Below are positions 23,392-45,106 of a stretch of 45,106 nt of DNA, piece by piece. The DNA comes from Nitrosomonadaceae bacterium. Lineage in GTDB: Bacteria; Pseudomonadota; Gammaproteobacteria; Burkholderiales; Nitrosomonadaceae. The stretch is taken from contig BJGV01000013.1 of assembly GCA_014190895.1 (NCBI GenBank), positions 1 to 45,106 of the forward strand, written 5' to 3'. Made by a program: the position numbers and the translations under genes. Under the pieces are notes generated by a model. The model had not been told where the DNA came from. It saw only the letters and a program-made list of their open reading frames with translations, and did no database searches. Position 1 is the first letter of the stretch, and every line of letters begins with the position of its first letter.

Positions 23392-25206
23392 TTACACAGC
23401 CAAGCGTGAGGCCTTCTTGCGTTCATTTTCTGACAAAAAACGTTTACGAACACGAATGGTCTTTGGGGTAATTTCTACTAATTCATCATCAGCAATGAAT
23501 TCAATTGCAGATTCTAAAGTAAGTTGAATAGGTGGGGTTAATGTTACGGCTTCATCTGTTCCTGATGCACGTACATTAGTCAGTTGTTTACCTTTGATCG
23601 GATTTACCACTAAATCGTTATCCCGACTATGAATACCAATGACCATGCCTTCATACAAGCGATCGCCTGGACTCACAAACATACGTCCGCGCTCTTGCAA
23701 TTTCCACAGCGCATAAGCTACTGCTTCGCCCTGTTCCGATGAAACAAGCACACCATTTCTACGTGCCGCAATTTCTGCTCGCATTGGTCCATACTCATCG
23801 AATACATGGCTCATTATGCCAGTGCCGCGTGTCATAGTCATAAAATCAGACTGAAAACCAATGAGACCACGGGCGGGAATGCGGTAATCTAATCTTACCC
23901 GTCCGCGCCCATCTGGAACCATGTCTTGTAAATCGCCACGGCGCGCTCCTAAAGCCTCCATTACTATGCCCTGATTTGCTTCTTCCACGTCCACAGTAAG
24001 CATCTCAAACGGTTCGCACTTTATATTATTAATCTCTCGAATCACAACATGTGGGCGAGATACTGCAAGTTCGTAGCCTTCTCGACGCATACTCTCAAGT
24101 AAAATAGTAAGGTGTAACTCGCCTCTTCCGGAAACAAGAAATGAGTCAGTATCACCAGTATCTTCCAATTTCATTGCAACGTTAGTAAGCAACTCTTTTT
24201 CTAAACGTTCACGTAATTGGCGGCTAGTGACAAACTTACCCTCTTTCCCGGCAAAAGGTGAGGTATTGACTTGAAAATTCATAGTCAGGGTCGGCTCATC
24301 TACAGCATGCATCGACATTGCTTCAGGTCGATTAATATCGGCTAAAGTAGCGCCAATACTAAGATCTTCGATACCGTTAATTAACACAATATCACCTACC
24401 ATGGCTTCAGTCAGCTGCACCCGCTCAATGCCACGAAAACCTAATATCTGATTGACCTTGGTCTTCTTTGGCACATTGTTTCCCGCTAATAACATAACTT
24501 CTTGATTAGGTTTGAGACGTCCACGAGTGATGCGGCCAATACCGATACGCCCAACAAAACTAGAATAGTCTAATGCGCTAATTTGTAACTGCAAAGGCCC
24601 ATCTGAATCACCGGAAGGGGCCTGAACATGGCTAAGCACAGTATCAAATAGCGGGCGCATATCAACGCCAGTTTTTTTAATATCTAGCGTGGCATAACCA
24701 TTGAGCGCCGAGGCATACACTACTGGGAAATCAAGTTGCTTTTCAGTTGCGCCTAACTTGTCAAATAAATCGAAAGTGTGATTTACCACCCAATCAGGAC
24801 GAGCTCCTGGCCGATCAATCTTGTTAATTACTACAATTGGATTCAAACCCAACGCCAGTGCTTTCTTGGTAACAAAACGAGTCTGGGGCATAGGGCCTTC
24901 AACAGCATCTACTAACAGCAATACACCATCTACCATCGATAGCACTCGCTCTACTTCGCCTCCAAAATCGGCATGACCAGGTGTATCCACAATGTTGATA
25001 TGCACACCTTCATAATTTACTGCACAATTCTTAGCAAGAATAGTAATTCCGCGCTCGCGCTCGATATCATTGGAATCCATTACTCTTTCTGCAATATGTT
25101 GATGTGCAGCAAAAGAACCCGCCTGATGTAATAATTTGTCTACTAATGTAGTTTTACCATGATCCACGTGTGCGATGATGGCAATATTGCGAATAGGACG
25201 AGACAT
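23392..25206 (-). CDS. typA: Translational GTPase TypA/BipA
   Basis: Ribosome-associated GTPase needed for ribosome assembly and growth at low temperature. From the chosen ATG it has 604 residues, the normal length. G motifs are visible: [26 protein letters not shown] and [13 protein letters not shown]. Domain II, EF-G-like domains and the TypA-specific C-terminal domain follow. ATG 25204-25206 has AAGGGA six bases upstream; the longer frame to 25239 has no such support. Confidence 0.96.
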
Positions 25207-43623: not shown

Positions 43624-43863
43624 ATGAAAACATTACTTGTAGCTGTTGCTATGTTATTTGCATTTACCGGTGCCGCATTAGCCAGTAATTGTCCAAATGA
43701 ACTAAAAACAATTGATGCAAAATTGTCTGCGGTTAAATTAACTCCTGAAGAAATAATTAAAGTTAAAGCTTTGAGAAATAAAGGTGCGCAGGAACATATG
43801 GATGGCAAGCATGGAGACTCAATGAAGTCTTTTGCCGAAGCTAAAAAAATGCTAGGTATTTAG
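43624..43863 (+). CDS. Small secreted helical protein, function unknown
   Basis: A 79-residue protein with a clear signal peptide (MKTLLVAVAMLFAFTGAALA, cleavage likely after residue 20). The mature part, about 59 residues, is polar, charged and predicted helical from its pattern (DAKLSAVKLTPEEIIKVKALRNKGAQ), with one cysteine. The region HMDGKHGDSMKSF has several residues that could bind metal. A good ribosome binding site (AAAGGA) lies four bases before the ATG. I do not recognise the family. A strong 11-bp hairpin follows the stop. Confidence 0.75.
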   Translation: MKTLLVAVAMLFAFTGAALASNCPNELKTIDAKLSAVKLTPEEIIKVKALRNKGAQEHMDGKHGDSMKSFAEAKKMLGI

Positions 43864-43926: not shown

Positions 43927-44124
43927 AAGACGTATCAATTTTGCCGGAGAGAAACCGCCATTATAGGAGTCTAATACAAGTTATTTAGTGTTAGAAGACT
44001 TTAATAACAAGACAGTTAGTAATTATCGCGTAATGTCACCGGGCTTTGACACTCCAAAGCGTTCCTACCTCATTTTTAAATATTGCTTGCTAATTTAAAA
44101 TTATAAGAATATTATATTTATACG

Positions 44125-44178
44125 CCGATTTGATTCAGCTTGCAGGGCGTTTAATAAATACTGCTAAAGCGAGTGCAA
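44125..44178 (+). promoter_or_regulatory. Structured element, copy A
   Basis: An outer stem TTGCA (44140-44144) / TGCAA (44174-44178) encloses an inner stem CG-TTTA (44148-44153) / TAAA-G-CG (44165-44171, one bulged G) with an AT-rich loop that ends in TACTGC. The block AATACTGCTAAA (44157-44168) recurs exactly in copy B. It is followed at once by an intrinsic terminator. Confidence 0.5.
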
Positions 44179-44212
44179 ACCCGTTTTAGCTAAAAGCTGA
44201 TGCGGGTTTTTT
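44177..44212 (+). terminator. Intrinsic terminator between the two element copies
   Basis: AAACCCG (44177-44183) pairs with CGGGTTT (44203-44209), and the stem runs into six T (44207-44212). Inside it AGCT/AGCT can pair. It would end a transcript carrying copy A, either a small RNA or an attenuated leader for the gene at 44303. Confidence 0.7.
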
Positions 44213-44225
44213 GTTGTCCATCGTC

Positions 44226-44278
44226 CCGATTTAGCCTCAATTGCGGGGGACGTTAAATGAATACTGCTAAACGAGGCT
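44226..44278 (+). promoter_or_regulatory. Structured element, copy B
   Basis: AGCCT (44233-44237) pairs with AGGCT (44274-44278) and CGTT (44251-44254) with AACG (44270-44273), enclosing the shared loop with AATACTGCTAAA (44260-44271). The outer stem sequence differs completely from copy A yet pairs, so the pairing rather than the sequence is kept. It ends 10 bases before the ribosome binding site of the next gene. Confidence 0.5.
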
Positions 44279-44302
44279 TATTCCACCAAAGGAGTTAAGA
44301 GC

Positions 44303-44971
44303 ATGACTACAATCACCTCTGCAGTTATCCCATCAAACCCAAGTTACACCCCACCCAGCTACTTCTTCCCTATGGACCTAGGCACGTATCTGCTTGCCAC
44401 CGTTAAGGGAACTCAACGAAGGAGTAGCATTGAGAAATTGATAGCAGAAGGTAGGGTACTCCATGTCGAGGACTGGTTAGCTCACAGTTCATTAGACAAT
44501 GACACCAGAGAACTCATCGGTAGATTCCATCCTGTTTTCATGGGTGGAGAGTATTTGCCAGACTTAAATGAAGGTGAGGTTGAGATCGCCAGAATTGAAC
44601 TAGCCAGCACTACAGCTGACGTGATTAGTGTCCGTGCTACTAAACATAAATCTCGCATCTACTATTCTGTTCAAGATGAATATTCTACTAAGTTTAAGGT
44701 GAAGCCTGGGTGGTCTAAAACCCCTCTAACATGCGGTCAAATAATTAATCTAATTGAGACAGCCACTGACACAAAGTATGGAGAGCAGTCTCTCGGGCTG
44801 CGTAGCTTAGATGAGCTGTATCGCTTACATGATGTGGGCTTAGATACTTGTCGATCTTTTGTACGAATCACCTCAGCCTTCTATTCGGAACTTGAGACTT
44901 GCTATGAACAAGCAATTGAAGATTGGTATCAATGCTGTTTAGAAGAACTCTTGGTAGATGAAAAACAATAG
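44303..44971 (+). CDS. Unrecognised 222-residue protein
   Basis: I do not recognise this protein. It has no signal peptide and no membrane segment. A proline/serine-rich start (SNPSYTPPSYFFP) precedes a mixed domain; the C-terminal third (from about residue 165) is helical and acidic, with Cys at 177, 194, 205 and 206 (CYEQAIEDWYQCCLEELL). A strong AAAGGAG eight bases upstream supports the ATG. Its leader carries the duplicated hairpin element and terminator, and a second short gene follows in the same direction, so it may be the first gene of an accessory operon or a mobile element. Confidence 0.75.
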   Translation: MTTITSAVIPSNPSYTPPSYFFPMDLGTYLLATVKGTQRRSSIEKLIAEGRVLHVEDWLAHSSLDNDTRELIGRFHPVFMGGEYLPDLNEGEVEIARIELASTTADVISVRATKHKSRIYYSVQDEYSTKFKVKPGWSKTPLTCGQIINLIETATDTKYGEQSLGLRSLDELYRLHDVGLDTCRSFVRITSAFYSELETCYEQAIEDWYQCCLEELLVDEKQ

Positions 44972-45028
44972 AAATGGAAGTCTGTTAGGCTAAATTTGAC
45001 AGCTTGAATGAAAGCATAGGAGAGCAAA

Positions 45029-45106
45029 ATGAGTGTATTGAACAAAGGTCAACGATGTATCGTGATCGCTGGTTGCCCAAAGAACATTGGAATATTAGTC
45101 GAGGTA
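45029..45106 (+). CDS. Start of an unrecognised gene, cut by the window end
   Basis: ATG at 45029 with AGGAG six bases upstream opens a frame of 26 codons that runs off the window, reading MSVLNKGQRCIVIAGCPKN and onward. Gly and Val content with a CIVIAGCP segment hints at a small beta-barrel, but no function can be given. It begins 57 bases after the preceding stop, in the same direction. Confidence 0.6.
   Translation, partial: MSVLNKGQRCIVIAGCPKNIGILVEV

Follow-up and report, generated by a model that had tools for sequence, protein, structure and literature searches.

A candidate tandem SAM-II riboswitch in the leader of an uncharacterised protein family

Introduction

What kind of RNA, if any, is repeated in the leader of a gene for a 222-residue protein near the end of this contig, and what might it control? 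The window analysed here is the whole stretch of 45,106 nucleotides, one complete contig of a 25-contig assembly, which ends at position 45106. The original prediction described two copies of a structured RNA-like element with an intrinsic terminator between them, proposed that one copy acts on transcription and the other on translation, or that the element is a small RNA matching the leader of the next gene, and left it without a known riboswitch class. It pointed to covariance-model searches and to the leaders of homologues of the 222-residue protein as places where the idea could be checked, and to copies found only as repeats at recombination sites as the case that would speak against it. 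Layouts of this kind have been described, since 44 examples of tandem SAM-II riboswitches have been published, some with a terminator first and a ribosome binding site second (PMC9481103).

Results

The repeated element and its locus

The exact 12-mer AATACTGCTAAA occurs at 44157-44168 and at 44260-44271, with the expected spacing of 103 bases, and sits within a 24-nt repeat with 88% identity between copies. It has no further copies across the 1.32-Mb genome, where a reversed-pattern control also gave zero. All features of the locus lie on the plus strand. The Shine-Dalgarno sequence AGGAG (44290-44294) and the ATG start codon at 44303 are likewise where they had been placed, and they open the 222-residue gene (44303-44971). 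It is followed by a gene beginning with MSVLNKGQRCIVIAGCPKNIGILVEV (45029-45106) that is cut off by the contig end, and the operon may continue beyond it. By eye, the start of this next gene resembles a small protein that follows the homologue in locus L101. A stretch at 44989-45006, upstream of this second gene, also looks similar by eye to the aptamers, but a search for a third aptamer there gave no match. About 7 nt 5' of copy A there is a promoter-like TTGCTA-17-TATTAT (44087-44115) with 9/12 consensus matches; its position fits, but the evidence is weak, with one such site found against 1.3 expected by chance. Further upstream, 43624-43863 encodes a 79-residue, secreted-looking small protein with a signal-peptide-like start and no Pfam family above the cut-off.

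Both copies are recovered by SAM-II models

An Rfam scan of the whole window at the cut-off returned tRNAs only. A permissive scan of the leader placed SAM_alpha on both copy A (44120-44179) and copy B (44221-44281), over the full model length and on the correct strand, with RF00521 scores of 22.6 and 18.9 bits, respectively, both below the gathering cut-off of 36, which is a curators' score and not a biological feature. Two covariance models were built from relatives with the window left out. R1, made from the genus's metZ leaders plus a further tandem of that genus, recovered copy A with 55.1 bits (E 5.9e-13) and gave copy B 10.9 bits, which is chance level. R3, made mainly from the second copies of other tandems, recovered copy A with 58.2 bits (E 7.7e-15) and copy B with 34.7 bits (E 2.9e-8), and ranked them as the top two places in the 45-kb window, the next scoring 14.5 bits. 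That third place, at 24310-24357, is a partial match (E 0.012) containing CGGCUAAAG and is likely due to chance. Because R1 (for copy A) and R3 (for both) recover them, homology to SAM-II (RF00521/RF01726) is found for both copies, which on these grounds are divergent SAM-II aptamers lying under the Rfam cut-off; SAM would then be the ligand of each. The view that the element matches no known riboswitch class is thereby superseded, and the homologues that a covariance search was expected to find do exist.

Rfam SAM_alpha matches with an E of 1 or lower are present in 7 of 8 genomes of the genus. The strong matches, at 28 to 38 bits and with one of them in the genome of the window, precede metZ, which codes for O-succinylhomoserine sulfhydrylase and has a purF-like gene just 5' in the loci that were read, and two of the genus metZ leaders used in the models pass the RF00521 cut-off. 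SAM-V (RF01826) gave no match up to E 10 in 44050-44340, and copy B lacks the extra L3 hairpin of the SAM-V-like leaders described below.

Pairing is kept in P1 while its sequence changes

Both copies contain P1, a loop that starts with GAUUU, a UUGC box and the GCUAAA core. P1 of copy A is formed by ACGCC/GGCGU (44122-44126/44146-44150) around a loop 1 at 44127-44145 that carries GAUUU and UUGC, with the core at 44163-44168. In copy B, P1 is a perfect 6-bp helix, CGUCCC/GGGACG (44222-44227/44247-44252), and loop 1 again carries GAUUU and UUGC (the latter at 44241-44244), with the core at 44266-44271. The pseudoknot helix P2 is clear in copy B, where AGCCUC (44233-44238) and GAGGCU (44273-44278) give 6 perfect base pairs; in copy A it is possibly AUUC (44133-44136) with GAGU (44171-44174), 4 bp with one G-U pair.

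Evidence for the structure is comparative. The 32 aptamers have 14 different P1 5' arms, and each pairs better with its own partner than with foreign ones (means of 5.6 and 3.8 consecutive paired positions). A formal count of covariation in 12 relatives found 98.6% of P1 paired, against 83.7% in shuffles. Support for P2 is modest, with own arms at -3.6 kcal/mol and swapped arms at -2.5 kcal/mol over all copies. Plain folding of each copy alone was no better than that of shuffled sequence, a null result that is uninformative because plain folding cannot represent a pseudoknot. These findings change the argument that had been made from the closing stems. The stretches TTGCA (44140-44144)/TGCAA (44174-44178) and AGCCT (44233-44237)/AGGCT (44274-44278) are present, but they are not the same helix: TTGCA of copy A corresponds to the UUGC box conserved in the SAM-II loop, while AGCCU/AGGCU of copy B is part of P2. 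Covariation was thus argued from stems that are not homologous, although there is real covariation, with changed sequence and retained pairing, in P1.

Copy A overlaps a terminator and a competing antiterminator

The terminator proposed after copy A was borne out as a stem with an inner hairpin and six T at 44177-44212 (-15.9 kcal/mol), although a simple terminator scan did not list it. As in tandems that work by two mechanisms, the first aptamer is thus joined to an intrinsic terminator. Its left arm, CGUUUUAGC (44182-44190), can instead pair with the core of copy A, GCUAAAGCG (44163-44171), in a 9-bp antiterminator (44163-44190) that excludes both the aptamer and the terminator. This core-to-arm duplex has an energy of -11.5 kcal/mol, compared to -3.7 ± 1.7 for shuffled arms, and for transcripts ending at 44190-44200 the minimum free energy fold consists of P1 and the antiterminator. 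Forbidding the aptamer any other pairing, to mimic the SAM-bound RNA, leaves the terminator alone. The full-length copy A RNA prefers the terminator even without ligand, therefore switching must be kinetic. The same core-to-arm pairing was present in most of the metZ leaders tested, in the genus and in sister genera; it was not seen in the tandems of genus g2 with this core window. Taken together, sequence and folding energies tie copy A to a putative transcription switch.

Copy B is placed for control of translation

Copy B ends shortly upstream of the Shine-Dalgarno sequence. In an anti-SD hairpin (44280-44295, -3.8 kcal/mol; a function in control would be a prediction from its position), AUUCC can mask GGAGU of this region, and GAAUA in L3 of copy B (44259-44263) can pair with UAUUC (44279-44283, -4.9 kcal/mol); the two pairings are mutually exclusive. 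In known SAM-II structures L3 is engaged within the folded aptamer, so SAM should favour the covered Shine-Dalgarno sequence. The anti-SD hairpin is weak, and folding predicts it in the ligand-free state as well. Position and competing pairings are compatible with control of the ribosome binding site by the second aptamer, the energies being small, and the translational step that we infer for copy B is the weakest part of the model.

Other tandem SAM-II leaders

Within the same family of genomes, R1 found tandems in G001, G024, G069 and G090 and, on closer look, in G021. In L051 the tandem precedes metK; in L054 metK follows about 1.2 kb after the tandem, behind a SAM-V-like leader of its own. 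Another genus has a second uncharacterised family of related proteins (L051:6003-6584, L052:298-1122 and L053:8494-9441), which share a C-terminal domain with a AATWCPMACVIW-like motif and lie behind or near tandem SAM-II leaders. A shared KSRIY motif suggested a kinship of the 222-residue protein to these, for which BLAST gave no support (E 0.23). A further tandem of the window's genus (L056:12903-13077, on contig C7 of G001) is at the contig's very end, with its target gene cut off, and has as neighbours Druantia-like defence genes (DruE, DruF- and DruL-like) and an HhH-GPD protein. In more distant genomes of the order, tandem SAM-II elements at L170:3828-3889 and L174:3886-3947 stand before other small uncharacterised proteins.

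The 222-residue protein family is found behind SAM riboswitches

Pfam, NCBIfam, PHROGs and PADLOC gave no match for the 222-residue protein, and a Pfam scan of 39 family members gave one marginal hit. Searches with one genome per species, in which matches were confirmed by tblastn with the unaltered sequence, returned 59 related loci. Their record titles place most of them in beta- and gammaproteobacteria, alongside verrucomicrobial, planctomycete and other bins, and Polynucleobacter, Limnohabitans, Zwartia and Ramlibacter are among the named isolates with the gene. The seven other genomes of the window's genus lack it, and no homologues were found in phages, plasmids or viral contigs. An AlphaFold2 model from 39 aligned sequences reached pLDDT 91 and pTM 0.86; there was no significant match in the PDB by sequence, and Foldseek against the PDB and a viral fold library gave no match at E 0.001, with a Z of at most 3.8 on a second look. 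Two homologues (L063, 7007-7642, and L066, 7512-8165) have one in-frame stop each, with leader and frame otherwise kept.

An Rfam scan of 47 of the loci found SAM-I/IV in 20 and SAM-I in 3, above the cut-off and all upstream on the gene's strand, and R1 found SAM-II with 27 bits or better in 7 more. At least 30 of the 59 loci thus have a SAM-I, SAM-I/IV or SAM-II riboswitch upstream; by comparison, the total of SAM-I/IV matches in 150 whole genomes of the order is 12. A metK-like gene lies upstream in 8 of the 59 loci and ends 12 to about 1,750 bases away from the family gene. The search for an accessory metK in the window's genome returned one metK and no second copy.

A second leader type resembles SAM-V

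Many family genes and several nearby metK genes have another leader just 5' of the Shine-Dalgarno sequence, for example at L083:5895-5976, L103:5889-5973, L068:2274-2358 and L054:6160-6245. It consists of a 5' hairpin, P1, an extra hairpin in L3 and a GCUAAA that runs into the Shine-Dalgarno sequence; the loop of the 5' hairpin often carries CCU, which could pair with the latter. Its helices covary (93.9% paired, against 84.3% in shuffled sequences, with 24 against 6.7 cells changed on both sides). One member matched SAM-V with 34.0 bits (E 2e-4, cut-off 41) and another had no Rfam match at all. We do not claim a new class, since a member matched SAM-V, below the cut-off, and we read the leader as a divergent SAM-V. 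With model R2 it was detected in 32 of the 399 genomes of the order. A number of loci have it behind a SAM-I/IV or SAM-II element, among them L078 and L101, where SAM-II, a terminator and then the SAM-V-like leader precede the family gene. This order of elements repeats the proposed transcription-then-translation layout of the window in aptamers of other classes. Depending on lineage, the family gene is therefore found behind four riboswitch types: SAM-I, SAM-I/IV, SAM-II and SAM-V-like.

Discussion

Our results support, with a probability of roughly 85%, a tandem SAM-II riboswitch that represses its operon under abundant SAM, at the level of transcription first and of translation second. At low SAM, the core of copy A would pair with the left arm of the terminator and RNA polymerase would read through, while L3 of copy B would hold the anti-SD sequence and the 222-residue protein would be made. 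At high SAM, copy A would fold around its ligand, the terminator would form and most transcripts would end near 44212; in those that escaped, copy B would fold around SAM and leave AUUCC free to cover the Shine-Dalgarno sequence. The proposed division of labour between the copies fits the evidence well, and the direction of control and the translational step are its more conjectural parts. Against the mechanism stand Rfam scores that do not reach the gathering cut-off, the preference of the full-length copy A RNA for the terminator without ligand, the shortness of P2 in copy A with its modest support over all copies, and the weakness of the anti-SD hairpin.

The last of these, together with the fact that copy B scores lower than copy A in every model, would also suit a leader in which only copy A functions and copy B is a decaying duplicate, with translation not regulated by SAM. 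This is unlikely, since P1 and P2 of copy B are both perfect 6-bp helices, the latter with a sequence of its own, and its core boxes are retained; other tandems likewise keep a second aptamer near the start codon. It is less probable still that copy A chiefly yields a terminated, trans-acting small RNA and that control in cis is secondary. Copy A should give a short transcript of about 90 nt, and in Sinorhizobium meliloti, where a SAM-II leader of metZ is also described, that leader is reported to be predicted to give such an RNA, named RZ, for which action in trans has been proposed (PMC9373788); however, every tandem that was read has the cis layout, and a short transcript is compatible with control in cis.

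The divergence of the sequences from Rfam SAM-II could reflect SAM-II-like aptamers with a changed ligand, such as SAH. We regard this as improbable, more so than the small RNA, since the GAUUU, UUGC and GCUAAA boxes are kept and homologous genes use SAM-I and SAM-I/IV elements and adjoin metK. Least credible of all is a recombination-derived repeat with no RNA function, to which one might be led by the contig ending 0.8 kb further on, by the absence of the gene from the rest of the genus and by the position of the genus's other tandem, also at a contig end and beside Druantia-like defence genes. Against this, the copies differ where pairing allows, the 12-mer is not found elsewhere in the genome and, within the genus, homologues form single leaders of metZ; far from being confined to recombination sites, they stand in many genomes in front of met genes and of members of the same protein family.

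The tandem SAM-II riboswitch favoured here shares with the published tandems a leader with two aptamers, a terminator after the first and a ribosome binding site after the second, and differs from them in its divergent aptamers under the Rfam cut-off and its undescribed downstream family (PMC9481103). The bhmt leader of Candidatus Pelagibacter ubique similarly combines a transcription stop with control of translation and one predicted ligand used twice, but its second aptamer is SAM-V, whereas that of the window is SAM-II (PMC2704228, PMC9481103). The mixed layout has thus already been reported and the window is a further case. Copy A, with its terminator and core-to-arm antiterminator, is of the same type as the single SAM-II metZ leader of the genus, which has one copy, where the window has two, and a target in methionine biosynthesis.

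SAM-II is common in this order below the Rfam cut-off, as R1 at E 0.001 matched 272 of 399 genomes, and in the twelve loci fetched the downstream gene was, by NCBIfam, metZ in five, metX in two, and metH and metK in one each. A 2014 survey had SAM_alpha only from Rhizobiales and Rhodobacterales and proposed 'metXZ', found before metX or metZ in beta-proteobacteria, as a new pseudoknotted element with terminators (PMC4239095). The metXZ element has the same pseudoknot (regions 1 with 4 and 2 with 6) followed by a terminator, ahead of the same genes, and differs in that the paper treats it as new and SAM_alpha as limited to those two orders. Judging from its place and layout, the beta-proteobacterial metXZ element is probably SAM-II, which would give it a ligand.

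What is new here is the SAM-II identification, the uncharacterised protein family downstream and the wide presence of SAM-II in the order. The regulation and neighbours of the family point to SAM supply or use, and the 222-residue family is more likely than not an unrecognised part of SAM homeostasis. The presence of several riboswitch classes before one family argues strongly, on genomic grounds, for a need for the protein at low SAM, and an uncharacterised but widely spread family thereby gains a candidate ligand, SAM.
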